A stretch of DNA of 64,000 bases from Xestospongia bergquistia (Eukaryota > Porifera > Demospongiae > Haplosclerida > Petrosiidae), in NCBI GenBank assembly GCA_963965975.1, contig OZ014414.1:7940230-8004229 (forward strand), given 5' to 3'. Below are positions 23,122 to 60,983 of the stretch, piece by piece. The translations under genes and the position numbers were made by a program. How positions within the stretch are numbered: the first letter of the stretch is position 1; every line of letters begins with the position of its first letter. The notes under the pieces were generated by a model. The model searched no databases, was not told where the DNA came from, and saw only the letters and a program-made list of their open reading frames with translations.

Positions 23122-23396
23122 GCATGCACACACACAGATATTAACAATCTAACTGAAAGTATTGGTAACACAACTAGTAACTCTTTCTAAGGGACTCTAA
23201 TCTACAGCAAGAAGAAACCAAATGAAAAGTCTCATACTAATTTCAGATTAATCAAACTTGTAACCTGATTCCTGTACCAGATTTCAAATTATTGAGTATC
23301 AAATCTAATCAAGACACATATCTATTTATTATTTCTTGTCGCTACTGACAACCAGTATATTTGACCAGTTATTGCTTTATTTATTACACTCATAAA

Positions 23397-25101
23397 ATGC
23401 CTCCTCCCCCTCCCCCACCTCCTCGAGCGGCCACCACTCGTTTGAGTTCATCGTCAGCTATGACTATGCCTATTGGAGGTCCTCCTCCTCCTCCTCCCCC
23501 ACCCCCACCTCCCCCTGGTGGTAGCCCTATACCGCCTCCGCCCCCTCAGCGGAGATCATCATTAAGCAAACCACTATCTACATCTTTTTCTCCACCTCCC
23601 CAGAATGATGTACCACCTCCACCGCCTCCTCCCCCTGGTAATGTCCCTCTTCCTCCTCCATCACCTGGTAGAAATTCCGTTTTCTCACCAGGACCTCTAA
23701 ATAGTCCTAAAAAGAAAGTGCCTCCACCTACAGCACCAAAAAGAAACTCAAGTCGTTCCAGTCGAAATTCAGATGTGTTCCTACCAGGTCCTCCACCCCC
23801 TCCTCCTCCTCCTCCCCCTCCCCCATCATCTGCTCCAGTAGCTCCACCTCTATCTATTGGAAATGGGCCACCTGTTGCTAAGAAACCCTCTAAAGGAAAG
23901 GGAGGTCCCCCTCCTCCACCACCAGCACGTAATGAATCAACACGTTTGACATCTTCCTCATCTACTCGCCAAACAAGTCCTGATCCAACGTCTCCAAACA
24001 AAAGGCGCAGTGCAGCTGCTATGACTGTAGGATACCTTCCCAATATGACACACATAGATCAACCCCCTCCTGCACCTCCTCCTCCCCCCCTTGTGCAGCG
24101 ACGTTCCCAGTCCTCTCTCTCACCACCTCCCGTACCAATGATGGTACAGAATGGACACAAAGATTATGACATACCGATAACAAAGGCCGAGAGAGAGGTC
24201 CGAGAAAGAATCTCAGTGGGACCCATCTACGATGAGTTAGAGTTTCCAAAAGATAAACAGCAGTCACCTCCATCAGGATCCAATTCACGTCCTATTTCAT
24301 TAACCAGTGTTACATCCAGTTCTCTCTCTGTTAACAGTAGTCGTGAGAGTCATAAAGATGATGGTGATTATGATATCCCACGTCCAGTTGGCAATGTTGT
24401 TCCTCCAGCTCCTCCTCCCCCACTCCCACCACCTCGAGGAGGGATAAATACAAATGAGGTTGTGGACCGGTTACTTGATGAACTATCAGAAGGACCAGAA
24501 CTTGAAATGGCCACTTTAGAACATCCTAATTTATTGAAGACAAATAGTTCCCTGTCCAGCCTGAGTACCTCATCACCAAGTGGTAGCAATGATAACCTCG
24601 GCCTTTGGGAAGATTTTAATTATGAAGATGACGAGAGTAATGGTTCTGGAGATAGTAATAGTATTGGTGGATTGAGTCTTGAAGCTCAACCCCCTGTTCT
24701 GACAGATGAAGATGAAGCGTTATTGGACTCATGGATCAAAGAATTGGAGAGTGGTGTTCAACGAATGTCAGATCTAATATCACCTGATGCTGTTCCACTG
24801 CCACCCTCGTCTGCTCCAGCACCTCCTCCACCCCCTCCAGCTCCTATGCCTCCTCCATCTGTCCCAGCTCCACCCCCTCCAGCTCCTATTCCTCCTCCAT
24901 CTGTCCCAGCTCCACCCCCTCCAGCTCCTATGCCTCCTCCATCTGTCCCAGCTCCACCCCCTCCTGCTCCTATGCCTCCTCCATCTGTCCCAGCTCCACC
25001 CCCTCCTGCTCCTATGCCTCCCCCATCTTTTCCAGCTCCTTCTCCTCCTCTTTCTCCATCTATTTCTGCCCCGCCCCCACCACCATCTAGAGCTCTGGTA
25101 A

Positions 25102-25137
<36 letters not shown>

Positions 25138-26214
25138 CATGTACATGTATTTAGTTATGATGAGGAATGCTAATTGGTTTATTTAAAGCAGTCAGTAATC
25201 TTAGCATCAGACGTAGACACGTGTTAAATGTACTAACTAATTATCTTTATCTTTGACATGTGTTGTTATATCACATATCAATAAAACTATACACACACAT
25301 CAATTAAAGATTGCAATTCTTATCGTGTTACGAGTAACTGGTCCTGAATTGACTAAAGTCTTAAACTAAACAATGTTTGGATAAACCAGTTACTGTAACA
25401 GTTTATAATTTTACTATTGTAAGAATTAGAGGAGATGTACATGCACATGTATACAAGCTTAGAACAAAGCAATGTTTGGATGAGCCATTTACTGTAACAG
25501 TTATTTTTAGAGCTAAAGGAGATGTACATGTACATGTATACAAATCACATGTCAAGTAAAGAATGTAATTATTATCATGTTAAAAGTAATGGGTGCTAAA
25601 TAGACTGAAGTTTTAAACTAAACAATGTTTGGATAAACCAGTTACTGTAACAGTTATTCTAAGAGGCAAAGGATATGTACATATATATATATATGTATAT
25701 GTGCATACATGTCAGATCTTGAGACACTCATCTTTCCAATTAATGTTGTTTGTTTACATAACAACAACTTAATTTGTAAAAATATGTAATTATTTTTGTA
25801 ACTTCTTTTGTTTACTAGCCGCGTCTGGATGATGTATCATCTCAAGTTCCACCTGGCTCACCCATGTCTGTCAATACTCCAGTTAATCATGTACCTCCAA
25901 CATCAATGTCTCCACCCCCTGAGCTATTAGTACAGCAAACATTGTCTCCACCTACTATCGAGTTGTCTCCACCCCCTTCTTCACCAGAGAGGAGGGGTAC
26001 TGGTGTCCAGATGAGACGAAAAGGAACTATAGTGGAAAAGAAAATGGTGTGTAAAATATACATAAACATATTATGTCTAATTGAGATACCCATTACTCTC
26101 TCTCTGTCTCTCTCTCTCTGTCTCTCTCTCTGTCTCTCTTTCTGTCTCTCTCTGTCTCTCTCTCTGTCTCTCTCTGTCTCTCTCTCTCTCTGTCTCTCTC
26201 TCTCTCTCTGTCTC

Positions 26215-31763: not shown

Positions 31764-34700
31764 TTATTCATGTTTTATTCTATACCACGTAATCTTTTCA
31801 CGATCAACAAATTCTACTCTATTATCACAGATCTTTTCACGATAACACTCATAAAGCACTAACTTCTTTATACTTCTGTTTTCTTTAAGACCGTCAGCTA
31901 TTTTGGAGATGTATGTTTCACTTAATGTATCAATAACAAGATACAATTTTTCAATAGTGCAATTGTCTTTAATAAGATTGGCAAGATGGAATTCTTTAAT
32001 CTCTTCTTCTATCATGTCATCATATGGTGGTATTTCATCAGGGTCATATGACAGCATAGTGTCCACTAGCACAAGCTTCTTGAGAATGCTGTTGGTAGTT
32101 AGTGATACATATAAATAATAATAGAAAGTATTTGAGAAACTTGGTGTTTCACAGAATAAGTATAGTTCTTGAAGTGAACTATTGGAGGTCAATCCCTTTG
32201 CTAAATCTTTTATTTCATCAAGGTTATTTATAGAAAGTTTCTGAAGATTTGGAAGCAACATTATTAAGTGACACTCCTCTTCACTTGGAGAAGACAAAGA
32301 CAACTCAAAAAGGGAAATTTTACTAATGGATTGGAGCAACTTAATATGACTATTGGGACTATTATTATTGTTGGATAAACGCAGTGTTTCCAAATGAGAT
32401 AAAGAAGGAACAAGTTTAGCTAGTTGGTCACACCCTCTATCATCAAGTTTACTTGTTGATAAATTCAAATATTGAAGTGATTGTAGTGGAAGTTTTATCA
32501 AGTGGTTAATACCAGCAAATGTGATGTCATTGTCAGAAAGATCTAGGTCTTTAATACAACCAGTCACTTCTTTTTGAGCAGTGATACCAGTATATAACAA
32601 CTCAAGATGATCATCAGTAATGTGAACATGAAAATTTAATGACCACTGCTTTTTACTGAATGCAATACATGACCCAATAACATACATATCAGTAGGTATC
32701 ATAAAAATGTCACCATAAACATATGGTGTTACTTCTCTTAGCAAAGTAAAATTTTGAGATTCATACACACAATGAAAGTCATAGACATCTAATTCCATCT
32801 TACTGACATTAAAGGATCCTGTTAAACCAGAAAGAAATCGCTTTACCATATTACCCAAGTCTGTTGACTTATCACCCTTTGATGAAATGTAGTATGCTGC
32901 AAAATATTCTTGTATTGATAAATGGAGAAAATTATAACTATAAGACTGGCCACAACTAATATGAATATACTCTACCTTTTGCATCAAATTGAAAACTTCA
33001 AAATCTTCTGGAAGATGATTAAAAGTTAGTTGTTCTTTCACAATACCTTCATAAGCTACCTGACATAGAGAAAGGAACTGCTGATAAACTTCATTTGGTA
33101 AATCTGTCTTAAAATCATTACCAAGATACCAATTCTTCTCTTTATATATTGGATGACATTTAAGATAACGTAAAAGAGCTGTCTTTACTAATTTAGTATA
33201 AAGTTGAGTCAATGTCTTTGGAGCATCTTCAATTGAACCTGATTGACGAAACACTTCCACTACTATAGCACAATTGAGAGGTATGTACATGACAGAACGA
33301 ATGTAGGAATATCGTTTAAGGTATTGTTGGAAGGTGGATCTTTCTGTTTCCTCTGGAAAAGCTTGTGTGATATAGTCATCCACATTATTCCGAGTAAATC
33401 CAACTATTTCAATATGTTGAGATATACAATGTTTGTGTGTCTCTATTAAATTATTAGTAGCCCAGGGTCGACTAGTAACCATTACTGTAGCTTGAGGTAA
33501 GATTTTACCAGTAAGTAGCTCCATAAAAAAAGATTCATCTTTCCTCTTGTCCTCAGGAAGTTCATCAAATCCATCCACTAATATAAAGGCACCTTGTCCA
33601 TGTGTACCTTTCACTTTTTTACAGTAATTTTCATCACTATTAGGGAAGAGATCAGCTACTGTTGATGCTTTGTGAACTTCTGGATCTCGTAGTTGTAACA
33701 ATGATAATACTGAGTATTGCTGCAAGATCTCTCCTTTAGCCCAACGACTACATACCTCCCAAGAAAACATAGTTTTACCAGATCCTGGAGCTCCTTCTAC
33801 AACAATACATTGAGATTGTCTACCATCTTTCAGATTTGCTAAGTCAGTAAATGTCATTTTAGTCTTAGTTCCCTCAACATAGTCAATGTGACCTTTTATA
33901 ATACGTTCATTCATCACTCTTACTTCCTTTCTGGTAACCCCTGCTTTATTGATCCACAGTAAATTAATAAAATCAGTCATTTGTACTGGAGGCCATTTTG
34001 GGTACCTTTTGTGTACATCTCTCAAGTAAATTTCCCTAAGATAATTATCATATGACAACACTTTAGGAGACTGATTGGTAAAACAATGATCTACAAAATG
34101 AAAAGCATACAACACTGATAAGTAACACATACCCACCATCTATGTAATTCCATTCTATTAATAACATATTATAGGTGATATTAGTTGTAGATTACTACTA
34201 TAGATAATGAAACCTAGAACAAAATTCATGAAGAGCATATATGCAAAACATATGGTCCCAACTACATTTCATTACACATAACATTTGCTGCTCTCTGAAA
34301 TATGGAAAGCTCTGTATTTCACATATAATCAACAAATTTTGATACCTGGATGTTTATAAACAGTTACATAACTGAATGTGGGTGAGCCTTATAGCAACAA
34401 AAAGACAGCGCCTTTTATCAGTCAATTTTCCATACTGCTCTGCTGTGCAGAGATGGTTAAATTTATTGCTTACAACTAGCTTAGGATAATGCATGGGCAG
34501 GTATGCTCGATATATAATTCACGAGATGTGAAAAAGTCGTATAGTAATTCACTATAATGATTACAAACAATCCTTATATATCATCTTTTGATGTTCATAG
34601 CTTAACTAATAACTTACTTGTGTCACTAGAGTATTTGTTTTTCAAAATTTTGTATATTTCCTTAGCTAGGGCTTCGTTTTCAACAAGTGGTCCTTTAACA

Positions 34701-37700
34701 ACATCTACAATTGTCTTCCAAGTAACAGGAGCAGCTGGACTATCCAAGTCTATCCATTTTTGAAGAACATGTTGAAGTCTTATTTGATTAGACATTGTAT
34801 TGTCTTTAGCCAATCCATCAAGGTAATTAAAACCCACATGTAGACCATTACCGATTTCACGCCATCTTGTATCAATAGAAACTAGTTGTTCTAAAACATC
34901 ATCTGTTGTGGTGAGTTTTTCAGCTAATAAAATTATAGAAAGGATCATTTTGTTATATAATAATAACTTACATAATAAAGGAAAATCACTGAGCTCCTCA
35001 GTACAGCTATCATTTCCTGCTACCTGTTCCTGACTACCTAATAATTATTGATCATGTTATAACATAACAGATAGTAAAGTTATGTTAGATTTACCTATGT
35101 CGAATTGGTACTTGTCCATAGGCTCTGAAGTTAGTGTAGAAGAATCTTTGCATCTACCTTTGCATCTATTCAGCACTAGAGTAAATGAAGAAAGATATTT
35201 AGACTTTTTAGATCTTTTCCTTTGTTTAGGTATGGAAATACACGAGGAAAAACCTTTAAAAACAAACATAAAACATCACAGTATTATTTGAAGGTAGCCT
35301 GTACCTTCATCCTTAGATATTGTACCTTTAGATTTTGAAACACTTATAAGTGAGGAAGTATCTGTTGACTCTTTTGATATTTTCTTTTGTTTAGGTGAAT
35401 GCTCTTTTATCCCTTTTGACCTCCTAAATCCAAAGGAAGTATCTTTAGATCTTTTCCTCATTTGAGGCGTTGAAGGATGAAGTAAGGAAGCATCTTTAAC
35501 TAGACAAATATAATTAGTATATACATGGATATATAGAGCCTACACTGTAAAAATTAATATGTCATTTCAACAACTAATTTGCAGCTTAAATGGATTAACT
35601 ACTATGGAGCATAGAATTCTTGTGTATTGCTCACTACGTAACTTGTTGGCATGTTGTTCCTTTAAAAACCAACAAAGTATACAATGAGTAATTCATGACA
35701 ATTCTATATTCCATAGTAATCCACCCATGTAAAGTACAAACTAATTGTTAAAATGACATGTTATTTTTTACAGTGTATACCTTTTATCTCTTTGTGTCTT
35801 TTATGAACTGGAATAAATGAAGAATTTTCAATCTCTTTAGGTCTTTTCCTCAAAGGATTGTTTGATGTCAATTCTATTGAAGTAAACAGATAAAACTCCT
35901 GCTTTTTATACCATCTCTCAATTATTATTGTCATACAATTATGAACATACTACAGTCATATATAGTTCTAGCTAGAAAAGCTTCTTTCACTACATGTTAT
36001 AAACACTATATGACATTGATGCTGATGAAACTCCCAACAACTAAATGGTTGGATAACTAGAACACTAGATCACACAAATCAAGATGTTTAAACATTTTGA
36101 TAATGCATGAGGCAAATGGATTTTGTTCTGTAGTATCTATATTGTACCATCATTCAATTTTCACAAATTGCCAAAAATAACAATGCACATTGCTAGTTTG
36201 TTTTAACAGTACACTAGCAAAGACCTCCAAATTATGATAGTTGGTATGTACAACATGATCCACAGGTGGATCCAGAGTGTAAAAATAGGGGGTGCACAGA
36301 CCGAGCGTAGCGTGCGCCAAAATTTTTAACTCTAATAAATTTCATAACTATTTATTATTCATAGTGCACCCTTTTAATTGTAAGGTGTGGTTGCAAGAAT
36401 TTGCTATGAATATACTTAAGTAATAATTTATGTACCACAGGTATGTCTGAATGATTGACTATGAATATTATTATAGAATGTGCCTGTGTACCTCTAGCCT
36501 CGTACCCTGCATGGGAAAAGAAAGCCTGGTAACTACTGTTTGCACATCCGTTTAATTTCCACAGATTTTTTGGAAAATAGTATACTCTAGGAATCCTCCG
36601 TTAACTATGACGGTTAAAATTCTTAATGTCACATTAGCTACTTGTAGTACAGTTATTCACAAACCCCAATTGTTTTGCATCCCAACAGCACTGAACAAGT
36701 TTGTTGCTCTTTGGCTTCCACTAAATCTCTGCACAACCGACAAACTCGACTAGATGTAGTGCATAAAACATCGTCAATATAAACCCAGTCCAATTTGTCA
36801 TTTAATTTAAATGTGTCATTATGATGTCAACATTTTCAATAATTACATGCATGCGCAAGCAGTAGTTTCTTGCGAAAAGCCTGGGTACGAGGCTAGTGCA
36901 CCCCTTAGATCCGCCAGTGATGATCTACATGGGCACTAAACTACACTAAACTCCTCAGTACAGCTATTATCTGTTTCTGACTACCTAATAATTATTGATC
37001 ATGTGATAACACAACAGATAGTACAAGTTATATTTACATTTACCTATGTCAAATTGGCTTGAATCAGTTATGTCATCAGGTTCTGAAGTTAATGTAGAAG
37101 AATCTTCTAGTTCTTTGTATCTTTTCTGAACTGGAGTAATAGAAGCATCTTCAATCTCTTTAGGTCTTTTCCTCTGTGAATCATGCAAGAAAGAATCTTC
37201 ACCAAAATGAGTACAAAATGACACTGTATTATTTACCTTCATTATTAATATCAAGATGTCTCTTTAACTTAGTAGCTATATCCTTATCTCCACAGTCTTC
37301 AACAGCTGAGATAAGGTTTTCCCACGAGGGGTCAGTACTGTTTGTAATCCACCATTGTAAACCTTCTTCTAAAGCAAAGTGGTAGTCTTGATCACTGCTG
37401 GCCGTTCTCTTAAGTCGTCTTCTCTCTTCCAGTGAGACACCTAGAAGACTAGTAAGCTCAGTCCATTTCTCTTTAACAACAAAACCACTTTTAACAAGAA
37501 GTCTTAAAACACTGTTAGAGTTTAATTCTATTGTAGTAAACAGATATACTCATACATGATTCTAGATAACGTTTCTATATACCTGTTTTAGGTCCAGGAT
37601 TGAGTTCAATATCTCCTGATAATATAAGGAGTAAGAAGAAAAACAAGACTAGAAAGGACATCAGGTTATTGCTGTCAGCCAGATTCCTTGGCAATCCTTC

Positions 37701-37802
37701 TCCTGACAAGACTGGGACTGTATCAGTGGTAGTTCCCCATAGATTGTTTTTATGGCAATACCATAACCCAATACTAGCTCTCCATTGACAAATATCAATC
37801 AT
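31764..37802 (-). CDS. NLR-A: 2A leader - Death - basic linkers - Death - NACHT - LRR, 1269 aa
   Basis: Nine exons on the minus strand in 5'-3' order: 37583-37802, 37237-37527, 37044-37196, 35781-35873, 35305-35499, 35095-35253, 34972-35037, 34618-34923, 31764-34090. The sum is 3810 nt with no stop. All internal boundaries are phase 1. Exon 1 (about residues 1-73) has a hydrophobic stretch and ends GDIELNPGPKTG, a canonical 2A motif. Exon 2 (about 74-170) is a Death domain (KWTELTSLLGVSLEERRRLK ... ISAVEDCGDKDIATKLKRHL). Exons 3-6 are Lys/Arg and Ser-rich linkers (RKRPKEIE, KQRKRSKKSK). Exon 8 (about 393-494) is a second Death domain (RWREIGNGLHVGFNYLDGLA). Exon 9 holds NACHT: Walker A GAPGSGKT (about 594-601), Walker B ILVDGFDEL, sensor VMVTSRPW, winged-helix region ending FLHLSIQEYFAAYYIS, then divergent LRRs (LDLSDNDITFAGINHL). 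Expected role: cytosolic innate sensor, by family. The acceptor cattttgtag/ATC sets the last exon start, so the ATG at 34139 is intronic. It is convergent with the MRL gene (475 bp apart). Confidence 0.87.
34091..34617. other. NLR-A intron between Death 2 and NACHT
   Basis: AT-rich, non-coding. The same intron is recognisable in NLR-B (42753-43265) and, more diverged, in NLR-C (48353-48890). Confidence 0.7.
35543..35775. mobile_element. MITE with TA target duplication inside an NLR-A mini-intron
   Basis: 233-bp element with long inverted ends (CACTGTAAAAA at both termini, similarity continuing about 40 bp through atgtcattt-aacaa), flanked by TA. The matching intron in NLR-C (50863-50908, 46 nt) is the empty site. 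In NLR-A the same intron is 281 nt, exactly 46 + 233 + 2. TA duplication and end structure suggest a Tc1/mariner-class non-autonomous element. It inserted within the first few bases after the splice donor of the exon 35781-35873. Confidence 0.9.
36261..36919. mobile_element. Non-autonomous DNA transposon, 659 bp, ATGATC target duplication
   Basis: Ends are CACAGGTGGATC and the complement of GATCCGCCAGTG, flanked on both sides by ATGATC (36255-36260 and 36920-36925). The interior begins with gaccgagcgtagcgtgcgcc. No transposase frame. It is the same insertion as 51401-52078, so it predates the duplication of this segment. Superfamily not assigned. Confidence 0.85.
36930..36984 (-). pseudogene. 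Broken extra copy of the small linker exon (exon 7 type)
   Basis: Reads ttattag/GTAGTCAGAAACAG and on to CTGTACTGAGGAGTTTAGTG like exon 34972-35037, but lacks the FPLL end and the donor. It sits between the transposon and exon 3, and marks an old internal duplication of the linker modules. Confidence 0.7.
37590..37616 (-). other. 2A ribosome-skipping motif GDIELNPGP, NLR-A exon 1
   Basis: Fits the established 2A consensus D-(V/I)-E-x-N-P-G-P, at which the ribosome fails to form the Gly-Pro bond. It directly follows a run of about 15 hydrophobic residues (LVLFFFLLLILS) and ends 7 nt before the exon boundary. An in-frame Met lies just before the hydrophobic run in this copy. Function here is inferred. 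Confidence 0.8.
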
Positions 37803-39000: not shown

Positions 39001-40836
39001 ATTTATCTCTAATATTATCAGGTTGTTCTTAAAGCTCATAATGTTGATGGTAGTACCAAAATGGTGGCCATTACTGATGGAATGAATGCAAGAGACGTCT
39101 GTTTCTTGTTAGCTGAGAGAAATCATCAAGAACAAGGACCCAATTGGACTGTTGTTGAGAAAATACCAGACCTACATTTAGGTAGAGAACATAAAGTATA
39201 TACATGTACCTGTATATGTCTATTGAACAGTAGCTAGTTAGCAATACATGAAGATTTTTAATAAAACATTTTTATATCTACAAGTAGATTTAAATTTAGT
39301 TGAGTTATGATTTGAAGTATACTAATAATTTGTACATTTTTATTTTTTCTATTCAACAGAGCGTACTCTTGAGGATCATGAGGTAGTTGTAGAGGCAACA
39401 TCACATTGGCCTAGAGATCATAACAATTTTGTTCTCTTCAAAAACAATCCTGAGAAATATTACATCATTAAAAGACCACAGGTATTTAGTTGTCATTACA
39501 ATGACTGTAGTTATCTCTCTTCTTTCTTCTAATAGTTACTTATGCCATCCAAACATGTCTACTCCAGTAATAATCCAGCTAGAAATAGAGGGAGCTTCTC
39601 TGAAGAACAAAAGAAGAATATTATTTTGAAAGTAAGGGAGAAAACGATAGATGACAATGGATGGATGAATGGATTGATGATGTGCTAATGTTAACTTATT
39701 TTTACTTTTCTTTCTCAGGAAATTTTTGAACAGAATATAATGCCTCCTATTGAGGGAGAACTTTTTATTAGAGAGGGGAAGAAAAGTAATTGGAAGAAAC
39801 ATTTATTTGTATTAAGAGCCTCTGGTCTTTATTACTCTAAGAATGGAAAATCGACTGTAGGAAATCTACAGTTGACAGATAAGATCTTTATCTCTATTTG
39901 TTTTTTTTTCTAGGCTAGTCGAGATCTTGTACGTGTTATTGAATGGAAGGATGTAGAGTGCTATACTGGTAATCAGTATAAAAAATTCTACAAATCTCCT
40001 GGCAACTTCTGTTTCTCTCTAATGGTAAGTTAGTCAAATGAAATTGCTATAGGAAGTTGCCTGAGTGAAAGATGACAAGGGATAAACAAAATGTGTACAC
40101 TTAACTAAGTTTATATATTTGGGAGGTGGTGTGTGACAATTTGTTTTTATTGTAGCCATATGGTCCTATATCTAAAGTAGAGAAGAAAATCATTCACGTC
40201 TGTGTACCTACTAAACATGATCTTAACTGTTGGATCACTGGAATAAGACTAGCTAAAGTAAGTTAAATAAAAAAATATGGCAGCTGCTTTATTGCAATTA
40301 TCCCACAAAGCATGGCAATCAACTACGTCAGAATTATGAGGACACTAAAGCTGATCTACCTTGGTTATTACTGGAGGATGAAAACTTAGACCAAATTACA
40401 TTACCATCTAGTTCTGCTGACAGTTTCACGCCTCGATCACGAGACACTAGTGCCGAACCAAGTAATATTAAAATCACGGTAATAAGTTCAATGTACATTA
40501 TCCACAATAAATTAATTTGTTGTTCTATTTATAGCAAGGAAGTGAGGAATTATCAGCTGGATCTACTCGTCACAAACTAACAAAACAATCTTGTAAGGAT
40601 TCAAGTTATTCAGTGATAACAAATTTTAATACATTTTTCTAATAACAGCTCAAGAACGGGAACGACCTTTTGAGTTTGGTTCTTCAAATCCTGGTGGTGG
40701 TGCTCATGTAATATCAGGTCCTGTTATAGAACCACAGATGAAAACAGCTTCTCTGAAACGTAATCAACAACGCAATGTGTTGGCAGCTGCTTTCAAAGAT
40801 GCTTGGAAACAGGGCAACTTAGCAACTGACGTAAGT
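39001..40836 (+). pseudogene. MRL copy 2: RA-PH exons without 5' or 3' ends
   Basis: Nine to ten exons identical in order and phase to 29197-31005 (first at 39023-39182, last ending at 40830), with intact splice sites and mostly synonymous differences. The upstream exons are absent. The final exon is gone: six bases after the donor the sequence jumps into the antisense of NLR-B. No promoter seen; presumed non-functional, though the reading frame still looks open. Confidence 0.88.
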
Positions 40837-43800
40837 CTTTAATAAGATTGGCAAGATGGAATTCTTTAATCTCTTCTTCTATCATGTCATCATATGGTGG
40901 TATTTCATCAGGGTCATATGACAGCATAGAGTCCACTAGCATAAGCTTCTTGAGAGTGCTGTTGGTAGTTAGTGATACATATAAATAATAATAGAAAGTA
41001 TTTGAGAAACTTGGTGTTTCACAGAATAAGTATAGTTCTTGAAGTGAATCATTGGAGGTCAGTCCCATTGCTAGTGCTTTTATTTCATCAAAGTCATATA
41101 TAGAAAGTTTCTGAAGATTTGGAAGTGACATTAGTAAGTGACACTCCTCTTCACTTGGAGAAGACAAAGTCAACTTAAAAAGGGAAATTTTACTAATGGC
41201 TTTGAGCAAGTTAATATGACCACTAGGAGTAATATTATTGTAGGATAAACGCAGTGTCTCCAAATGAGATAAAGAAGGAACAAGTTTAGCTAGTTGGTCA
41301 CACCCTCTATCATCAAGTTTATTCCTTGATAAATTCAAATATTGAAGTGATTGTAGTGGAAGTTTCATTAAGTGGTCAATACCAGCAGATATGATGTCAT
41401 TGTCAGAAAGATTTAGGTCTTCAATACAAGCAGTCACTTCTTTTTGAGCAGTGATACCAGTATATAACAACTCAAGATGATCATCAGTAATGTGACCATA
41501 AAAATATAATGACCACTGCTTTTTACTGAATGCAATACATGACCCGATAACATACATATCAGTAGGTATCATAAAATTGTCATCATAAACATATGGTGTT
41601 ACATCTCTTAGCAAAGCAAAATTTTGAGATTCATACACACAATGAAAGTCATAGACATCTAATTCCATCTTATTGACATTAAAGGATCCTGTTAAACCAG
41701 AGAGAAATCTCTTTACCATATTACCCAAGTCTGTTGACTTATCACCTTTTAATGAAATATAGTATGCTGCAAAATATTCTTGTATTGATAAATGGAGAAA
41801 ATTATAACTATAAGACTGGCCACAACTAATATGAATATACTCTACCTTTTGCATCAAATTGAAACCTGAGTCAATGTCTTTGGAGCATCTTCAATTGAAC
41901 CTGATTGACAAAACACTTCCACTACTATAACACAATTGAGAGGTATGTACATGACGGAACGAATGTAGGGATATCGTTTAAGGTATTGCTGGAAGGTGAA
42001 TCTTTCTGTTTCCTCTGGGAAAGCTTGTGTGATATAGTCATCCACATTATTCTGAGTGAATCCAACTATTTCAATATGTTGAGATATACAATGTTTGTAT
42101 GTCTCTATTAAATTATTAGTAGCCCAGGGTCGACTAGTAACCATTACTGTAGCTCGAGGTAAGATTTTACCAGTAAGTAGCTCCATAAAAAAAGATTCAT
42201 CTTTCCTCTTGTCCTCAGGAAGTTCATCAAAGCCATCTAGTAATATAAAGGCACCTTGTCCATGTGTACCTTTCACTTTTTTATAGTAATCTTCATCACT
42301 ATTAGGGAAGAGATCAGCTATTGTTGATGCTTTGTGAACTTCTGGATCTCGTAGTTGTAACAATGATAATACTGAGTATTGCTGTAAGATCTCTCCTTTA
42401 GCCCAACGACTACATACCTCCCAAGAAAACATAGTTTTACCAGATCCTGGAGCACCCTCTACAACAATACATTGAGGTTGTCTACCATCTTTCAGATTAG
42501 CTAAGTCAGCAAATGTCATTTTAGTCTTAGTTCCCTCAACATAGTCAATGTGACCTTTTATAATACGTTCATTCATCACTCTTACTTCCTTTCTAGTAAC
42601 CCCTGCTTTATTGATCCACAGTAAATTAATAAAAGCAGTCATTTGTACTGGAGGCCATTTTGGGTACCTTTTGTGTACATCTCTCAAGTAAATTTCCCTA
42701 AGGTAATTATCATATGACAACACTTTAGGAGACTGATTGGTAAAACAATGATCTACAAAATGAAAAGCATACAACACTGATAAGTAACACATACCCACCA
42801 TCTATGTAATTCCATTCTATTAATAACATATTATAGGTGATATTAGTTGTAGATTACTACCACAGATAATGAAACCTAGAACAAACTTCATGAAGAGCAT
42901 ATATGCAAAACATATGGTCCCAACTACATTTCATTACAAATAATATATACTGCTCTCTGAAATATGGAGAGCTCTGTATTTCATATACAATTTTTGCTAC
43001 CTGGATGTTTATAAACAGTTACATAACTGAATGTGGGTGAGCCTTATAGCAATAAAAAGACAGCGCCTTTTATCAATCAATTTTCCATACTGCTTTGGTA
43101 TACAGAGATGGTTAAATTTATTGCTTACAACTAGCTTAGGATAATGCATGGGCAGGTATGCTCGATATATAATTCATGAGATGTGAAAAAGTCGTAATTC
43201 AGTATAATGATTACAGACAATCCTTATATCATCTTTTGATGTTTACAGCTTAACTAATAACTTACTTGTGTCAGTAGAGTATTTATGTTTCAAAAGTTTG
43301 ATATTTCATTAGCTAGGGCTTCGTTTTCAACAAGTGGTCCTTTAACAACATCTATAATTGTCTTCCAAGTAACAGGAGCAGCTGGACTATCCAAGTCTAT
43401 CCATTTTTGAAGAACATGTTGAAGTCTTATTTGATTAGACATTGTATTGTCTTTAGCCAATCCATCAAGGTAATTAAAACCCACACGTAGACCATTACCA
43501 ATTTCGCGCCATCTTGTATCAATAGAAACTAGTTGTTCTAAAACATCATCTGTTGTGGTGAGTTTTTCAGCTAATAAAATTATAGAAAAGGATCATTTTG
43601 TTATATAATAATAACTTACATAATAAAGGAAAATCACTAAACTCCTCAGTATAGCTATCATTTCCTACTACCTGTTTCTGACTACCTAATAATTATTGAT
43701 CATGTGATAACACAACAGATAGTACAAGTTATATTTACATTTACCTATGTCAAATTGGCTTGAATCAGTTATGTCATCAGGTTCTGAAGTTAATGTGGAA

Positions 43801-44502
43801 GAATCTTCTAGTTCTTTGTATCTTTTCTGAACTGGAGTAATAGAAGCATCTTCAATCTCTTTAGGTCTTTTCCTCTGTGAATCATGCAAGAAAGAATCTT
43901 CACCAAAATGAGTACAAAATGACACTGTATTATTTACCTTCATTATTAATATCAAGATGTCTCTTTAATTTAGTAGCTATATCCTTATCTCCACAGTCTT
44001 CAACAGCTGAGATAAGGTTTTCCCACGAGGGGTCAGTACTGTTTGTAATCCACCATTGTAAACCTTCTTCTAAAGCAAAGTGGTAGTCTTGATCACTGCT
44101 GGCCATTGTCTTAAGTCTTCTTCTCTCCTCCAGTGACACACCTAGAAGACTAGTGAGCTCAGTCCATTTATCTTTAACAACAAAACCACTTTTAACAAGA
44201 GTCGTAAAGCATTGTTCGATGTCAATTTTATTGTAGTAAACAGATATACTCATACATGATTCTAGATAACGTTTCTATATACCTGTTTTAGGTCCAGGAT
44301 TGAGTTCAATATCTCCTGATAATATAAGGAGTAAGAAGAAAAACAAGACTAGAGAGGACATCTGGTTATTGCTGTCAGCCAGATTCCTTGGCAATCCTTC
44401 TCCTGACAAGACTGGGACTGTATCAGTGGTAGTTCCCCATAGATTGTTTTTATGGCAATACCATAACCCAATACTAGCTCTCCATTGACAAATATCAATC
44501 AT
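40837..44502 (-). pseudogene. NLR-B: decayed Death-Death-NACHT-LRR copy
   Basis: Recognisable exons: 44283-44502 (2A leader), 43938-44228 (Death 1), 43745-43897 (linker), 43620-43685, 43266-43570 (Death 2), 40837-42752 (NACHT-LRR). The basic linker exons 4-6 of NLR-A are missing. Lesions: acceptor AG of the Death 1 exon changed to AA plus a 1-base loss inside it; a 1-base deletion near the end of Death 2 (exon 305 instead of 306 nt); a ~205-base frame-breaking deletion after the NACHT region (junction near 41867, frames meeting at 41854-41857); loss of the last ~65 codons by fusion to the MRL copy. Walker A and B remain. Between lesions the sequence is very close to NLR-A, so the decay is recent. 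Confidence 0.88.
44290..44316 (-). other. 2A motif GDIELNPGP in the NLR-B leader exon
   Basis: Identical to the NLR-A motif and preceded by the same hydrophobic run. It belongs to a gene broken downstream. Confidence 0.75.
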
Positions 44503-45950: not shown

Positions 45951-48900
45951 TTATAACTGTTTATAATATTTTATTCTGTATGAAATCATCTTTTCTTGAT
46001 CAACAAATTCTACTCTATTATCACAGATCATTCCACGATAAGACTCATAAAGCACTAACTTCTTTAAAGTTCTGTTTTCTTTAAGACTGTCAGCTATTTT
46101 GGAGATATATATTTCACTTAATGTATTAATAACAAGATACAATTTTTCAATAGTGCAGTTTTCTTTAATAAGATCAGCGAGATAGAATTCTTCAATCTCT
46201 TCTACAATAATTTCATCACATAGTGAGATATCATCAGGGTCTTCAATCCCCTCTTCAATCTCATTTAACATCATTTCACCATATAGTGATATTTTATCAA
46301 GGTCAAAGTCCACATAAATGTCCGTTAGCACAAGCGTCTTGAGAGTATTGTTAGTAGCGAGTGAACTATACAAATAATAATATAAAGTATTTGGGTCTGT
46401 TACGGGATCACAAAAGTGTAGTTTTTGAAGTGTAGTATTTAAGGCTAGTCCTGTTGCTAATGCTTCTATTTCATCAAGGTCAAATATAAAAAGGTTTTGA
46501 AGGTTTTCGAGTGACATTAATAAGTGACACTCGTTTTCACTTGGAGAAGACAAGGTCAACTCAAAAAGGGAAAGTTTACCAATGGTATTGAGCAAATTGA
46601 TATGACCATCAGGAGTAATGCTGTTGAGAGATATGTTGAGACACTGCAAATGAGGCAACAATGGAACAAGATTAGCTAGTTTGTCACATCCGTCATTATC
46701 AATTTCATTCATTGACAAATTCAAGTAATGAAGAGATTGTAATGGGAGCTTCATTAAATGGCCAATACCAGTAGATGTGATGGCATTGGAGGAGAGATCT
46801 AGTTCTACAATACTTCCACTAACTTCATTTTGAGCATTGATACCAGCATATAACATCTCAAGATGATCATCAGTAAGTTGATGATCTTTAATGATCAATG
46901 TCCATTGACGTTTACTGAGCACTATACATGACCCAACAATATACATATCAGTAAGTGTCATGGAGATAACAGAAAAAAATAGTAATGGTTCTACTTCTAG
47001 ATCTCTTAACAAAATAACATTTTGAGATTCATACACACAGTGACAGTCATTAACATCTAGTTCTTCCCTCCTTTCAACATTATAATATCCTGTTAAACCA
47101 GAGAGAAATCTCTTCACCATATTACCCAAATCTGTTGACTTATCACTCTTTGATGAAATGTAGTATGCTGCTAAATACTCTTGTATTGATAAATGAAGAA
47201 AATTGTAACTATAAGACTGGCCACAACTAATATGAATATACTCTACCTTTTGCATCAAATTAAAGCCTTCAAAATCTTCTGGAAGATGATTAAAAGTTAG
47301 TTGTTCTTTCACAATACCTTCATAAGCTACCTGACATAGAGAAAGGAACTGCTGATAAACATCATTTGGTAAATCTGTCTTAAAATCATTGCCAAGATAC
47401 CAATGTTTCTCTTTGTATATTGAATGACATTTAAGATAACGTAAAAGAGCTGTCTTTACTAATTCAGTGTAGAGTTGAGTCAATGTCTTTGGAGCATCTT
47501 CAATTGAACCTGATTGACGAAACACTTCCACTACTATAGCACAATTGAGAGGTATGTACATGACAGAACGAATGTAGGGATATCGTTTAAGGTATTGCAG
47601 GAAGGTGGATCTTTCTGTTTCTTCTGGAAAAGCTTGTGTGATATAGTCATCCACATTATTCTGAGTGAATCCAACTATTTCAATATGTTGAGATATACAA
47701 TGTTTGTGTGTCTCTATTAAATTATTAGTAGCCCAGGGTCGACTAGTAACCATTACTGTAGCTTGAGGTAAGATTTTACCAGTAAGAAGCTCCATAAAAA
47801 AAGATCGATCTTTCCTCTTGTCCTCAGGAAGTTCATCAAATCCATCCAGTAATATAAAGGCACCTTGTCCATGTGTACCTTTTACTTTTTTACAGTAATT
47901 TTCATCAACATTAGGGAAAAGATCAGCTATTGTTGATGCTTCCTGGATCTCTGGATCACGTAGTTGCAACAATGATAGTACTAAGTATTGCTGTAAGATC
48001 TCTCTTTTGGCCCAACGACTACATACCTCCAAAGAAAACATAGTTTTACCAGATCCTGGAGCACCCTCTACAACAATACATTGAGGTTGTCTACCATCCT
48101 TCAGATTAGCTAAGTCAGCAAATGTCATTTTGGTCTTAGTTCCCTCAACAAAGTCAATGTTACCTCTCGCAAAATGTTCATTCATTACTCTTACTTCCTT
48201 TCTGGTAACCCCTGCTTTATTGATCCACAGTAAATTAATAAAAGCAGTCATTTGTACTGGAGGCCATTTTGGGTACCTTTTGTGTACATCTCTCAAGTAA
48301 ATTTTCCTGAGGTAATTTAACACTTTAGAAGACTGGTTGGTAAAACAAGGATCTATAAAATGAAAAGCATGCGTCCACATCTATGTAATTAACTCCATTC
48401 TATAGTAACATATTGTGCATGATATTAGTTGTAGATAACTGCTACAAATAGTGGAACCTACTTCTCTTAACAAACTTCATGATGAGCATAAAGTTCATTA
48501 ATACAGACACAATTATGATATGTGGTCCCAACTACATTCCATTACATACAATACTTGCATGCTCTCTGAAATATAGAAAGCTCTGTATTCTAATATATTG
48601 AACAATTTTCATTGGATGGATGCTTATAAACAGTTACAATACTAAAAATGGGTGTGCCTTATGGTAGCTATAAAGTTGTAGCTCTGATCAGTCAATTTCC
48701 ATACAGCTTTGTTGTGCATAAATATAGTTGAATTTAATGCTTAAAAATGGCTTGGGATGATACTTGGTCAGGTATGGTCAATATACAATTTATGTGTGGT
48801 TAAAAAGTTAGTCTATTAATCTAGTCCAATGATTATAGACAGTCTTTATATATCATCTTTGATGTTCATAACTTAACTAAAATAACTTACTTGTAACAGT

Positions 48901-53858: not shown

Positions 53859-54149
53859 TGGAGCTCATTCTATTGGTTATATTTCTAATATAGCTATATT
53901 TCCAGACCTATATGATTTATAAACAATACCTACAATGTTACCAGTAGTTCATGTAAACTGTTGTAAATGTATTAGTAGAAACAAACATAATTTAATAAAT
54001 GATTTATACACATTGTAAATATTAACAGTAAATACAACTATATAACAATAAGTTATCAGTGTAACTGGTTATGTTAAAATCATTTATCAAGCAAAAAAGT
54101 GGAACAATAACAATTATGATTGTCTTCCTTTTATTACAAAAGTTCACTA
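53859..54149. other. Non-coding spacer
   Basis: AT-rich. Nothing recognised between the tandem repeats and the NLR fragment. Confidence 0.4.
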
Positions 54150-55001
54150 GTTCTGTGTACAGTTGAGTCAATGTCTTTGGAACATTTTCAAATGAACCTG
54201 ATTGACGAAACACGTCCACTACTATTGCACAATTGAGAGTTATGTACATGACAGAACGAATGTAGAGATATCTTTGAAGGTATTGCTAGAAAGTATTGTC
54301 TGATTCAATATGAAAAACCTGTGTGATATATTTATCAACATTCCCCCTAGAGAACACAACTTTTTTATGTTCTGAGATATACAGTGATTGTATTATTGGT
54401 AGTCTGCTAGTAACAATTACAGAAGCTAAAGGTATGAGTTTACCAGTAAATAGTTTCATGAAAAATGATTGTTCCTTCTCTTGTTCTCAGGACATTCATC
54501 AAAGCCATTCAAAAGTATATTCTCCGTGAGCACCAGTCATTTCTTTATAGAGATCTGCAGAGCTATTTGGGAAGAGATCAGCTATTGTTAATGCCTCATG
54601 AGCCTCTGGATCTCATAGTTGTAACAATGATAATACTGAGTATTGTTGTAAGATCTCTCCTTTAGCCCAACGACTACATACTTCCAAAGAAAACATAGTT
54701 TTACCAGATCCTGGAGCACCCTCTACAAAATTACATTGAGGTTGTCTACCATCTTTCAGATTAGCTAAGTCAGTAAATGTCATTATAGTTTTAGTTCCCT
54801 CAACATAATCAATGTCACCTTGAATTATATGTCATACAAAACATTCAATTCATCTTGGGTAACCCCTGCTTTTTCAATCCACGGTAAATTGATGTAAGCA
54901 TTCATTAACACTGGAGGCCATTTTGGATACCTTTGTGAATCTTTCGTAAATAAATTTCCCTGAGATACTCAGCATAAAACTGAACTAATTGAGATAATAC
55001 C
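54150..55001 (-). pseudogene. NLR fragment E: degenerate NACHT region
   Basis: Matches the 5' part of the NACHT exon, nearest to NLR-D. ccagatcctggagcaccctc (Walker A region, about 54705) and aacccctgctttttcaatcc are recognisable, and the 3' end keeps LNCAIVVDVFRQSGSFENVP. Several indels and stops break the frame (for example around 54290 and 54490), and nothing of the winged-helix or LRR part follows. Confidence 0.85.
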
Positions 55002-56254: not shown

Positions 56255-59200
56255 CTACTGGCAACTATAAGCAATTGTTTTAGAAAAAGATATGCTGGGG
56301 GCACTTGTTGTAAAAGTTGGAAAATTAAAACACACTCTTGAATCGTTAATCTGACCATAATATGTTCTAGGTAAAAGCAGCCATTGAATAATTTGGTTTT
56401 CTTTAAGACTTTCAGCTAGTCTTAAGACATTATTCTTACTCAATCTGATATCACGAACATTCAAACGTTTAATACTACGATTTTCTTTAATGAGATCAAT
56501 CAAATCAGTGTCCTGTTCTCTTAGAAAAGCCTCCCTAATAGTGAGGACTCTCAGGTTTTTTAATGATGTCAATAATTGGTACTCTTCTTCACTTGGTGAT
56601 GATAACTTCAAACTAAAATCTGGAAGATTTGCAAGAGCTTTAAGTAAATTAATATGACCACCAGAATTAATATTGCTTTTGTGAATTTTCAAAGAGTTCA
56701 ACTGAGGCAAGAGAGGAATAAATTCAGCTAATTTGTCACACCCTTCATTACCAAGACTACTGTGTGAAAGATTAATGTAAGTAAAATACTGCCACAAAGA
56801 AGATGGAAGTGTCATAAAATGCTCAATACCAATAGAAGTGATATTAGAATGCTTAAGATTTAGTGCATTAATAAGACAAGAAACTTTGTTTTGGGCATTG
56901 ATACCAGCACATAACATTTCAAAATGCTCATCATTAAGAAACTCTCTTTCAAACATTAATTTCCATTTCAGTTTAGTGAGTGCTAAATATGATCCAATAA
57001 CATACATATCAGAGGGTAACAGGCGTTTTTCACATGAACATGTAATATCGTTGTCTATTGATTGTCCTGACAAAGTGGTTTTCTGAGACTCGTAGTGACA
57101 ATGAAGCATATGGATATCATCTTGTTGCCATGACCAATCAAAGTTACATGTTTTAGTCAAGCCACAAAAAAACTTCTCCACTTTTAACTCACCTCGCAAT
57201 GGATTAAAACCTATTAATGAAATGTGATATGCTGCTAAATATTCTTGTATTGATAAATGGAGAAAATTATAGCTATAAGACTAACCACAACTAATGTGAA
57301 TATGTTCTACTTTCTGCATTAAATCAAAACATTCAAAATATGCAGGAAGATGGTTGAAAACTAGCTGTTTTTTCTCAATACCTTCATAAGCTACCTGACA
57401 TAAAGAAAGGAACTGCTGATAAACTTTATTTGGTAAATCTGTCTTAAAATCATTACCAAGATACCAATTCTTCTCTTTGTATATTGGATGACATTTAAGA
57501 TAACGTAAAAGCGCTGTCTTCACTAATTTAGTGTAGAGTTGAGTCAATGTCTTTGGAGCACCTTCAATTGAACCTGATTCACAAAACACTTGAACTACTA
57601 TAGCACAGTTTAGAGGTATGTACATGACAGAACGTATGTAAGGATATCGTTTAAGGTATTTCTTGAATTTAGATCGCTCTGTTTTATCTGGAAAAGCTTG
57701 TGTGACATATGTATCAACATTCTCCCAAGTGAATCCAATTATTTCAATGTGTTGAGATATATAGCGTCTGTATCTCCGCACAAAATTATTAGTAGCCCAG
57801 GGTCTGCTAGTAACAATTACTGTAGCTAAAGGCAAGAGTTCACCAGTAAGTAACTTCATGAAAAATGATTGTTCCCTCCTCTTGTCCTCAGGAAGTTCAT
57901 CAAAACCATCCAAAAGTATGCAACAGCTTTCTCCACAAGCATCAACCATATTTTTAAGGAGATCTGCAGAACCATTTGGGAAGAGATCAGCTATTGTTGA
58001 TGCTTCATGAACTTTTGGATCTCGTAGTTGTAACAATGATAATACTGAGTATTGTTGTAAGATATTTTCTTTAGCCCAAAGACTACATACCTCCCAAGAA
58101 AACATAGTTTTACCAGATCCTGGAGCACCCTCTACAACAATACATTGTGGTTGTCTACCATCTTTTAGATTAGCTAAGTCAGCAAATGTCATTTTAGTCT
58201 TAGATCCCTCAACATAGTCAATGTCACCTTGGATTATATGTTCATACATAACATTCGATTCACCTATTGTAAACCCTGTTTTATCAATCCACAGTAAATT
58301 GATGAAAGCATTCATTAACACTGGAGGCCATTTTGGATACCTTTTGTGAATCTCTCGTAAATAAAGTTTCCTGAGATATTTAGCATAAGACTGAACTGAC
58401 TGAGGTAATACTGCAAAATATGAAAATAGCAAATTATGAAAATATGAAAATAAAAATAAATAAATAAGACATACTAGATGCATACCAATTACACATTTTT
58501 ATAATTTTGCAAACTACACAACATTTCATGTTCCCTTGTAGATATATCTTAAATTTAATTGTTTTTATCTAATTATATTCTTACAGTTTTATAGATATTT
58601 ATAATTTACAAAGTACAATTTCTATTTATTCAATAGTTAATGAAGCCGCTACAGCCACTCTGTGCTAATATATCAAGCTAGACCCTCCTTTTTGCTGACG
58701 TCAAGCAAAGAAATTTAATTAATTACAATAAATAAAATGATGAAGTTACACAGATACCTTTATTCTCACTTTTCATTATGCATGGCTACATTTGAAAATC
58801 AACACACTTTAAAACTCATGTTTTAAAAATGTTAAAAGTAAAAGGTTTTCTTTTAAAAATAAAGCATTATCATTTTGTAAAATGTCACATCACATCACTT
58901 ACAATATAGTAATCAAATCTACAGAAGCTGCAGACAGACATTCCAATTCCTATTTCCTATTTCTTCCACAAACCTTCACGTATTTTGAAAGTTCCAATTA
59001 ACAACCCAGTTGATGGGGTCCAGTTCTTTATTCCTTATTCTATTCTTGATACATGCACAATTTCTAATTTTAATTAGGCTTTTCTTGTTACTTAATAAAA
59101 CACAGAGTGTGAATACAATGAGCCATCTCTTAGAATCAAGCATCAGCGAGATGTTTCCAGTTGGGTTGGGTTCCTGATTTTGGTTATATATTGTAGGTCT

Positions 59201-60983
59201 ATCATACACAGAAACGTAGGACGGACATTCATTTCCGAGTTCTTATTTATGGAAGCCGAGGATGGAGATTCTAACTCCGTATAATTCAGTTTGTTTAAAA
59301 TTGGAAATAGAAATTGGAATGTCCACCCTTGACTTCAATACAAACCTGTATTATGTTTATTTGCACTTTACATCATGCTATCTGTATTACCATAATATTG
59401 GTTAAATCAACCAATCAGTCTTTATTGTGTTAACATTTAGAATAATATTATAATTAATAACAGGTACATTTGCTAAGGTATTATTATAATTCCAAGTAAA
59501 GTAAGACTATACTTGAACACAGTTCAAAGGTCAATTTCACTAGTTAAGGTTAAGACAACAATTTTCATTTCCTATTATAATATTTTTGAGATGAGCTTAC
59601 CAGTTTCCTGTGGAGCAGTTTTGGTGTCTACTTTATGTTGCTTATCTTGACAGTTACCTGTGACAATGACATGATAGAAACGTATACAGTGGAATAAATA
59701 TTATATATAATATGTATATTACTTTGCTGCGTAGAGGCTTGTTCTTTCAAATCTTGGTACATCTTCATAGCTAGAGCATTTTTTTGTACAAGTGGCCCTT
59801 CAACAACATCTATAATTGTCTTCCAATTGACAGGAGACTCTTGACTATCTAAGTCTATCCATTTCTGAAGGACTTGTTCCAGTCTTATTTGATTAGTCGT
59901 GTTAGACTGAGCTAATCCATCAAGGTAATTGGAACTTAGTCTCAAACCATTACCAAGTTCACGCCATCTTGCATCAATAGGAATTAGTTGCTTTAAAATA
60001 TCATGTATTGTAGTAATCTTTTCAACTATAATAATAACAGACAAGGAATCAATGAGTTATATAGTAATTAACTTACATAATAAAGGAAAATCAACAAAGT
60101 CATCAATAGAGCTATCATTTTCAACCAGTAATTCTTGGTTACTTGTAGTGTGTCCAGAACCTAATAAGAAATTAAAAATTTACCGGATAGGAAAATTCTA
60201 ACTAAGTCCATATGCTCTTCAAATAATACATAATTGATGGCACAAACATGTATGTATGTAACTTTTATCAACAATGAAATATGTAGACATCATACCCTTA
60301 GCAAGTTCTTCAATCTCTTCAACTTTTTCTTTCACAGGTATTGAAGGATATGATGAAGTATCTTTAATGAAGTGATAATAAGGAAGAAATGATTAAATTA
60401 AGCCATACCTTCATTATTAATATCTAACAGGTGCTTCAACTTAGCAGCTATATCCTTATCTCCACAATCTTCAACAGCTGAGATAAGGTTTTCCCATGAG
60501 GGGGCAGTACTATTTGTAATCCACCATTGTAAACCTGTTTCTAAAGCAAAGTGGTAGTCTTGATCACTGCTGGCCATTGTCTTGAGCCTACTCCTCTCCT
60601 CCAGTGAGACACCTAGAAGACTAGTGAGTTTAGTCCATTTCTTTTCAACAACAAAACCACTCTTAACAAGAAGTCGTAAAACATTGCTAGAGTTTAATTC
60701 TATTGATCACAGAAATCAAATGAGACAGTTATATGTTGAAATGTTTACCTGTTTTAGGTCCAGGATTGAGTTCAACATCACCTGATAAAATGAGGAGGAG
60801 TAAGAAAAACAACACTAGAGAGAAGGTCAGGTTATCACCAACATCATTTCCCAATTCTCTTAACCATAGTGACTCCATCCAGGTATCCACAGCAGTTCCA
60901 TGTGGCAGACTCTTAGTAGCAGCTGGTATTCGATAACAAACCCATATCCCAATACAAACCCTCCATTGAGAGAGGTCAATCAT
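56255..60983 (-). CDS. NLR-D: 2A leader - Death - linkers - Death - NACHT - LRR, one in-frame stop
   Basis: Exons in 5'-3' order: 60749-60983, 60409-60699, 60296-60361, 60077-60160, 59723-60025, 59601-59657, 56255-58410. The sum is 3192 nt, frame consistent, all boundaries phase 1. Exon 1 starts MIDLSQWRVCIG and ends GDVELNPGPKTG after a hydrophobic run. Death 1: KKWTKLTSLLGVSLEERSRL. Death 2: RWRELGNGLRLSSNYLDGLA. NACHT: GAPGSGKT, ILLDGFDEL, VIVTSRPW. At 57281-57283 a TAG replaces the CAG (Gln) of the other copies in the HISCGQSYSYNF block, at about codon 722 of 1064. The frame is then open again to 56255 with LRRs (LNLKHSNITSIGIEHF). As it stands the product would be Death-NACHT without LRRs. 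It may be a recent nonsense mutation, a polymorphism or a sequencing error. The LRR part is diverged from A and C. Confidence 0.78.
58938..59322. mobile_element. Inverted-repeat element in the NLR-D intron, possible MITE
   Basis: ACATTCCAATTCCTATTTCC (58938-58957) is repeated inverted at 59303-59322 with one mismatch. A further partial copy (gacattcatttccgagttct) lies at about 59225. No clear target duplication and no open frame; a foldback or MITE is likely. Confidence 0.5.
60756..60782 (-). other. 2A motif GDVELNPGP, NLR-D exon 1
   Basis: Same position as in NLR-A and -B, after a hydrophobic run (LVLFFLLLLILS), but with V for I. The sequence before the hydrophobic run is strongly diverged from NLR-A, apart from the first residues (MID-x-x-QWR-x-x-IG). 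Confidence 0.8.

Follow-up and report, generated by a model that had tools for sequence, protein, structure and literature searches.

The window analysed here, a 64,000-nucleotide stretch of the genome of the sponge Xestospongia bergquistia (contig OZ014414.1, positions 7,940,230 to 8,004,229), carries on its minus strand the gene NLR-A, in which Death, NACHT, and LRR regions follow one another on one strand (by Pfam, with Death and NACHT above the cut-offs). Its first exon encodes a hydrophobic run joined to a 2A, or StopGo, motif of the kind that causes ribosome skipping, and this leader exon is the subject of the present analysis. The features of NLR-A, in window coordinates, are the following.

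37583..37802, minus strand: exon 1 (leader), 220 nucleotides, starting at ATG 37802, reaching NPGP in 71 codons, and closing with KT before a phase-1 donor
37752..37802, minus strand: conserved N-terminal block MIDICQWRASIGLWYCH, with low dN/dS (ratio of nonsynonymous to synonymous change) and a purine at -3 of the ATG across leaders
37617..37661, minus strand: hydrophobic run of NLR-A, MSFLVLFFFLLLILS
37590..37616, minus strand: 2A/StopGo motif GDIELNPGP, an exact pattern match
37528..37582, minus strand: putative intron 1, 55 nucleotides, GT..AG
37237..37527, minus strand: exon 2, Death domain, 291 nucleotides, phase 1-1
31764..34139, minus strand: NACHT exon (Pfam NACHT, E=4.7e-18), with weak LRR matches below Pfam cut-offs

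The original prediction of a hydrophobic run, GDIELNPGP-KT, and a phase-1 donor was borne out exactly at 37583-37802 (-). Exon 1 reads ATG...LVLFFFLLLILSGDIELNPGP-KT and then the phase-1 GT donor, and the frame opened by the ATG at 37802 (-) is MIDICQWRASIGLWYCHKNNLWGTTTDTVPVLSGEGLPRNLADSNNLMSFLVLFFFLLLILSGDIELNPGP-KT. Both the core D(V/I)ExNPGP and the L-rich run ending in SG that mark 2A/StopGo elements are present, the upstream context in NLR-A being LLLILSG, and a conceptual splice to the Death exon keeps the frame open past the final proline. Exon 1 is probably spliced to this Death exon, which matches Pfam Death with E=7.2e-6 on the exon open reading frame (ORF) and with 2.5e-5 on the conceptual join of exons 1 and 2. 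The junction had been given as PKTGEL; it is PKT-E-LNSNS, with the donor splitting the codon G|AA for Glu. The run had also been described as an N-terminal leader, and this is probably mistaken, as the likely start of NLR-A is 47 residues upstream of the run.

The leader-2A exon occurs in three copies within the window, in NLR-A, NLR-B, and NLR-D, and a genome-wide scan (146 Mb) with the DNA pattern for G-D-(V/I/M)-E-x-N-P-G-P gave 156 exact matches, some of them of retroelement type. The reversed pattern has 0 matches, so that the motif is not a product of chance. A peptide search with the 27-residue end of the leader returned 143 matches (best 150 of 170 candidates scored), and these together with 22 places from the DNA-pattern listing make up a working list of 165 2A places in which gene-type and retroelement-type copies are mixed. 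The leader begins with a conserved block, M-I-D-x-x-Q-W-R-x-x-I-G-L-W-x-C, about 48 residues ahead of the hydrophobic run (the QWR block); its DNA pattern, Q-W-R-x-x-I-G-x-W, has 118 genome matches and its reversed control 0. Places were listed for 100 of the 156 exact motif matches and for 100 of the 118 block matches. In the stretch common to both listings, where 64 block sites were picked without regard to 2A, the exact motif lies 147 to 192 nucleotides past the block at 60 of the 64 sites, always in frame, and conversely the exact block is found with 60 of 100 exact motifs. Among the listed block sites, 97 of 100 are followed by a same-strand leader-2A peptide match that starts 111 to 174 nucleotides on; all 97 distances are multiples of three, and block and 2A therefore belong to one translated frame with a middle of variable length. 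The three listed sites without a 2A match are truncated after the block (L051 and L053) or have a frameshifted motif (L052). By a loose pattern, the block is present in 28 of the 40 loci fetched through their 2A. The leader-2A exon exists in about a hundred or more paralogous copies in this one genome.

Conservation was examined in 33 distinct leaders out of 53 rows, which were required to match M..QWR loosely and to carry the motif; duplicates, copies without the block, and L012 were omitted, and M1, Q6, W7, R8, and most motif residues are fixed by this choice. Pooled dN/dS over the 33 exons, used as a contrast between regions and not as absolute values, was 0.27 for the block (0.35 without the four picking residues), 1.06 for the linker, 0.32 for the hydrophobic run, and 0.10 for GDxExNPGP. 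The peptides of the block and of the run are under constraint. The motif residues not fixed by picking are G, kept in 32 of 33 leaders, and the final P, kept in 33 of 33, and a phase-1 GT stands at a single fixed offset in 29 of 33. In 26 hand-chosen aligned leaders, L58, L59, L61, S62, and G63 each reach at least 90%, and the run has a median Kyte-Doolittle mean of 2.82 over a 16-residue window. The run is preceded by a median of 48 residues (37 to 53) in the 33 leaders, and a purine occupies -3 of the ATG in all 33. A start at a Met adjoining the run was rejected, because such a Met occurs in just 4 of the 33 leaders, NLR-A among them. An amphipathic-helix reading of the QWR block was likewise rejected (median helical moment, 0.09). 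In 23 of the 33 leaders an AG lies within 9 nucleotides upstream of the ATG, which may mark a splice acceptor or belong to a start-site motif. The leader family has no Pfam match (0 of 26 members), no PHROG, and no PDB chain, and no relative was confirmed in wider scans of genome contigs and viral contigs, in which 7 and 15 stretches, respectively, matched the pattern.

The leader had been taken for an exon of NLR genes. It does precede NLRs and is not confined to them, being found also before ankyrin, guanylate-binding-protein (GBP), and COR genes. The search for NACHT domains (best 103 of 156 candidates scored) gave 95 matches, of which 49 have a 2A place within 10 kb upstream on the same strand; as controls, 30 have one downstream on the same strand, which tandem arrays would lead one to expect, and a single match has one on the opposite strand. 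At a limit of 6 kb the three figures are 48, 19, and 1. Outside chromosome C2 a leader lies upstream of 49 of 66 NACHT matches, and of 0 of the 29 on C2, which are clustered between 8.8 and 9.2 Mb. A Pfam survey of same-strand ORFs after the 2A exon in 20 regions of about 10 kb found NACHT in L016, ankyrin frames of 1437 to 2254 amino acids in L009, L012, and L022, a GBP GTPase in L023 (E=1.1e-33), and a COR-A region below the Pfam cut-off in L025; a COR-A match above the cut-off lies 3.0 kb past the leader at C7:1.94-Mb. L019 has a ZU5 match just below the cut-off and a Death domain far downstream, and ZU5/Death genes may tentatively be added to those with a leader. Within 10 kb of the 165 places, the nearest domain is NACHT for 48, ankyrin for 19, GBP for 5, COR for 3, and none for 90, the last figure being an upper bound, since the ankyrin matches entered (49) come from the best 150 of 6319 candidates; for COR the best 150 of 171 candidates were scored, and for GBP 32 of 32. 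One leader module precedes several immune-type gene families.

A Death-like match starts 82 to 96 nucleotides after the 2A in the NLRs of C4 and C10, the ankyrin genes of C14, and a C8 family. Judged by its sequence, this next exon is recognisably one Death exon common to the NLR, ankyrin, and C8 copies, although it falls below the Pfam cut-off in the tested ankyrin and C8 copies (L009 and L049), and a phase-1 candidate donor ends it in 8 of 8 copies compared. Leader identity is 67 to 79% between C10 NLRs and C14 ankyrin genes and 59 to 70% between C10 and C4 NLRs, whereas Death exon identity is 72 to 79% across architectures (NLR C10 against ankyrin C14) and 80 to 83% between NLR clusters; because these identities run opposite ways, the two exons did not necessarily move as a unit. 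A different Death-like exon is found at +361 to +2513 in L016, L020, L023, L024, and L025. No Death-like exon was found in up to 3 kb after the 2A in L019, L021, L022, L026 to L028, and L050, or in the roughly 1.1 kb available after the second copy in L015. The Death family search (best 150 of 983 candidates scored) was not used for counts. In L018 (G000:C4:8326611-8336582) a single NACHT exon is preceded by a tandem pair of leader + Death cassettes, with 2A ends at 863 and 2192; the second cassette lacks the QWR block, and the locus is either a partial duplication or an alternative first-exon set.

We propose, with a probability of about 0.72, that exon 1 is a reusable leader module working as a StopGo/2A element. 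Translation would begin at the MID..QWR..IG.W.C block and proceed through the hydrophobic run, and most ribosomes would leave the Gly-Pro bond at NPG|P unmade. Of the two products, the first would be a leader peptide of about 70 residues with a hydrophobic segment near its C terminus, and the second a leaderless, presumably cytosolic Death-domain receptor beginning with proline, whose expected N-terminal peptide in NLR-A begins PKTELNSNSVLR. An unskipped minority would stay fused to the leader and enter the endoplasmic reticulum (ER) membrane or the secretory route. The anatomy of the exon, the in-frame layout from block to 2A, the matching donor phase, the constraint on block and run, and the presence before several families are observed directly. 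Skipping at the leader 2A is likely on the basis of sequence, and its efficiency and the membrane fates of the products are inferred, as is the splicing: most ribosomes would release the leader and restart at Pro, because core and upstream context fit StopGo and the sea urchin leader skips. The earlier suggestion of skipping into two protein forms fits the canonical 2A kept after a hydrophobic run at 97 of the 100 listed block sites. The simple signal-peptide targeting that went with it cannot be assumed, since a median of 48 residues, including the conserved block, precedes the run.

Several points weigh against this proposal. The core by itself does not suffice for full 2A activity, and chimeras frequently lack activity (PMC12846837). 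The ATG in 33 of 33 leaders is circular, as the ATG was part of the picking, and the motif dN/dS of 0.10 is partly so, as copies were chosen by the motif; the linker is a rough internal control with a gappy alignment, and the leaders are related paralogues, not independent, with partly saturated synonymous sites. Some copies are broken or variant. Frame or start is lost in L010 and L012, a stop precedes the motif in L042, and in-frame stops occur in L061 and L067, besides the frameshifted L052 and the truncated L051 and L053; L054 and L055 (G000:C4:754000 and 785430) have GGVELNPGP for GDVELNPGP, natural D-to-G variants of the core. No frame was shown by the filter used in L056, L057, and L065, L031 and L034 have no motif row, and L039 and L066 have a 2A without the block. 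A diverged leader, L060 (G000:C1:2174840-2175190), has VWRARIGLF for QWRxxIGLW, and GDVEVNPGP; the block thus tolerates change.

What the released leader would do is less certain. In the skipped leader the run ends 8 to 10 residues before the C-terminal Gly, and because so few residues follow it, the run would still be in the ribosome tunnel at release, a tail-anchored layout. These may then be two-protein genes, making in fixed proportion a tail-anchored membrane microprotein, with the QWR block cytosolic, and a cytosolic Death-domain receptor, so that NLR, ankyrin, GBP, and COR receptors would have the same membrane partner; we regard this as a tentative proposal, short of an even chance. 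A little less probable is that dual targeting of the sea urchin type is the whole function, the leader being only an ER signal and skipping setting how much receptor goes to the ER and how much to the cytosol. The same order of run, 2A, and Death-NACHT-LRR is found in sea urchin NLRs, where such targeting was shown with reporters, but a signal peptide alone needs no QWR block, and here 37 to 53 residues precede the run, the first 17 or so of them constrained (dN/dS 0.27, or 0.35 without picking residues). That the 2A no longer skips and the leader is a signal-anchor of membrane-bound receptors would agree with a report of sponge NLR models that contain transmembrane segments and were described as putatively membrane-bound (PMC12909245); we consider it improbable, as the exact motif is kept in 60 of the 64 block sites picked independently of 2A and a signal-anchor has no need of NPGP. 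Conservation of the nucleotide sequence as an RNA or promoter element, instead of the peptide, is very improbable: third-base variation in the NPGP codons is indeed small (0.12 to 0.27), but it is equally low in five other leader columns (0.10 to 0.24) and higher in others (0.47 to 0.67), and amino acid changes are rarer than synonymous ones in block and run. A special codon constraint on NPGP was rejected on the same comparison.

The origin of the leader in a non-LTR retrotransposon, raised in the original prediction, was left unsupported. Genomic 2A copies with a leucine run before GD(V/I)ExNPGP do lead directly into a PHD finger in L021, L026, and L027 (below the cut-off in L026), and in L027 an ORF resembling an endonuclease scores below its Pfam cut-off; L068 and L069 resemble these retroelement-type copies by eye, and L063 is unclassified. 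The QWR block was not seen in any of these six loci. In the Pfam-tested downstream ORFs of QWR loci (a selection from the window and from L009, L012, L015, L016, L018 to L020, and L022 to L025) no PHD finger was found, and in the window leader genes Death and NACHT follow the 2A by Pfam, not a PHD finger or endonuclease/reverse transcriptase. Capture from a non-LTR retrotransposon is unlikely. The search for RVT (best 150 of 1023 candidates scored) was not used for counts. A third, small 2A class, L028 and G000:C7:5.98-6.00 Mb, consists of a short ORF ending FLLRCGDIESNPGPGK(A/S)DV; it has no QWR block and, in one copy, no Death-like exon within 3 kb.

The precedent for 2A signal sequences in sea urchin NLRs stands (PMC4981915). 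There, 2A occurs in about 35% (85/241) of the NLRs of Strongylocentrotus purpuratus (Roulston et al. 2016, PMC4981915), the 26-residue 2A leader gives about 80% skipping, a skipping-dead mutant sent the reporter mainly to the Golgi, and 14 of 87 NCBI entries of sea urchin NLRs have the 26-residue N-terminal form; NLRs and retrotransposons are the two main categories of 2A carriers (PMC4981915). Like the SpNLR2A genes, NLR-A encodes a Death-NACHT-LRR receptor with a hydrophobic run and D(V/I)ExNPGP at its start or close to it. In sea urchin the 14 listed leaders are 26 residues long and sit at the very N terminus, whereas here the run comes only after the block and a linker (a median of 48 residues); the paper places other sea urchin 2As somewhere in the N-terminal region, and longer leaders may exist there (PMC4981915). 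Here, in contrast to SpNLR2A, the leader is found in front of ankyrin, GBP, and COR genes as well. With viral 2A/StopGo it shares the octapeptide core and the upstream L-rich run with (A/S/C)G at its end, a described StopGo type; obstruction of the exit tunnel by the L-rich stretch is known from the solved case (PMC12846837). Such elements are known mainly from virus polyproteins, whereas this one is a host-gene exon with a phase-1 donor. Non-LTR retrotransposon 2As are alike in the leucine run before GD(V/I)ExNPGP, and the retroelement-type copies in this genome differ from the leader genes in going straight into a PHD finger and in having no QWR block. Among the open-access literature matches listed for sponge, Amphimedon, and Porifera there is no report of 2A in sponge genes; the available text of a Dysidea NLR paper has neither '2A-like' nor 'signal peptide', and '2A-like' in one Amphimedon queenslandica paper is an unrelated protein name. 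The class of mechanism is known; what sets this leader apart, provisionally, from the sea urchin precedent is its conserved N-terminal block together with its occurrence in several gene families.

The other genes of the window include the remaining copies of the leader exon.

44283..44502, minus strand: NLR-B leader-2A exon, a near-identical copy
43930..44274, minus strand: NLR-B ORF containing the Death exon (Pfam Death, E=6.2e-6)
41854..42801, minus strand: NLR-B NACHT ORF (Pfam, E=1.6e-19)
40793..41890, minus strand: NLR-B LRR ORF, in a frame different from that of the NACHT ORF (LRR_6, E=7.4e-8, above the cut-off)
60749..60983, minus strand: NLR-D leader-2A exon (GDVELNPGP)
60401..60706, minus strand: NLR-D ORF containing the first Death exon (own hidden Markov model, E=1.4e-39)
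59628..60056, minus strand: NLR-D second Death-domain ORF (Pfam, E=3.9e-5)
57281..58498, minus strand: NLR-D NACHT ORF (Pfam, E=1.1e-17)

The NACHT and LRR parts of NLR-B occupy two overlapping open frames at 40793-42801 (-), which points to an intron or a frame break. The fourth NACHT gene of the window (45951-48380, -) has no leader-2A in the 10 kb upstream of it; upstream of this gene, NACHT-like fragments in separate short frames at 54025-54831 (-) are probably decayed copies. On the plus strand, 2504-3895 holds a 464-residue ORF with an AbfB domain (arabinofuranosidase B type, E=2e-54), and 23349-25154 a 601-residue open frame with no Pfam match at E 0.01.

Ribosome skipping has been considered very rare among cellular genes, one example being the sea urchin signal sequences (PMC12846837), and the present finding matters for that reason. 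If it occurs at the leader, skipping would be a permanent element of an innate immune repertoire. The reading predicts a conserved microprotein hidden by gene models built for single proteins, and the leader module could bear on reports of membrane-bound sponge NLRs.

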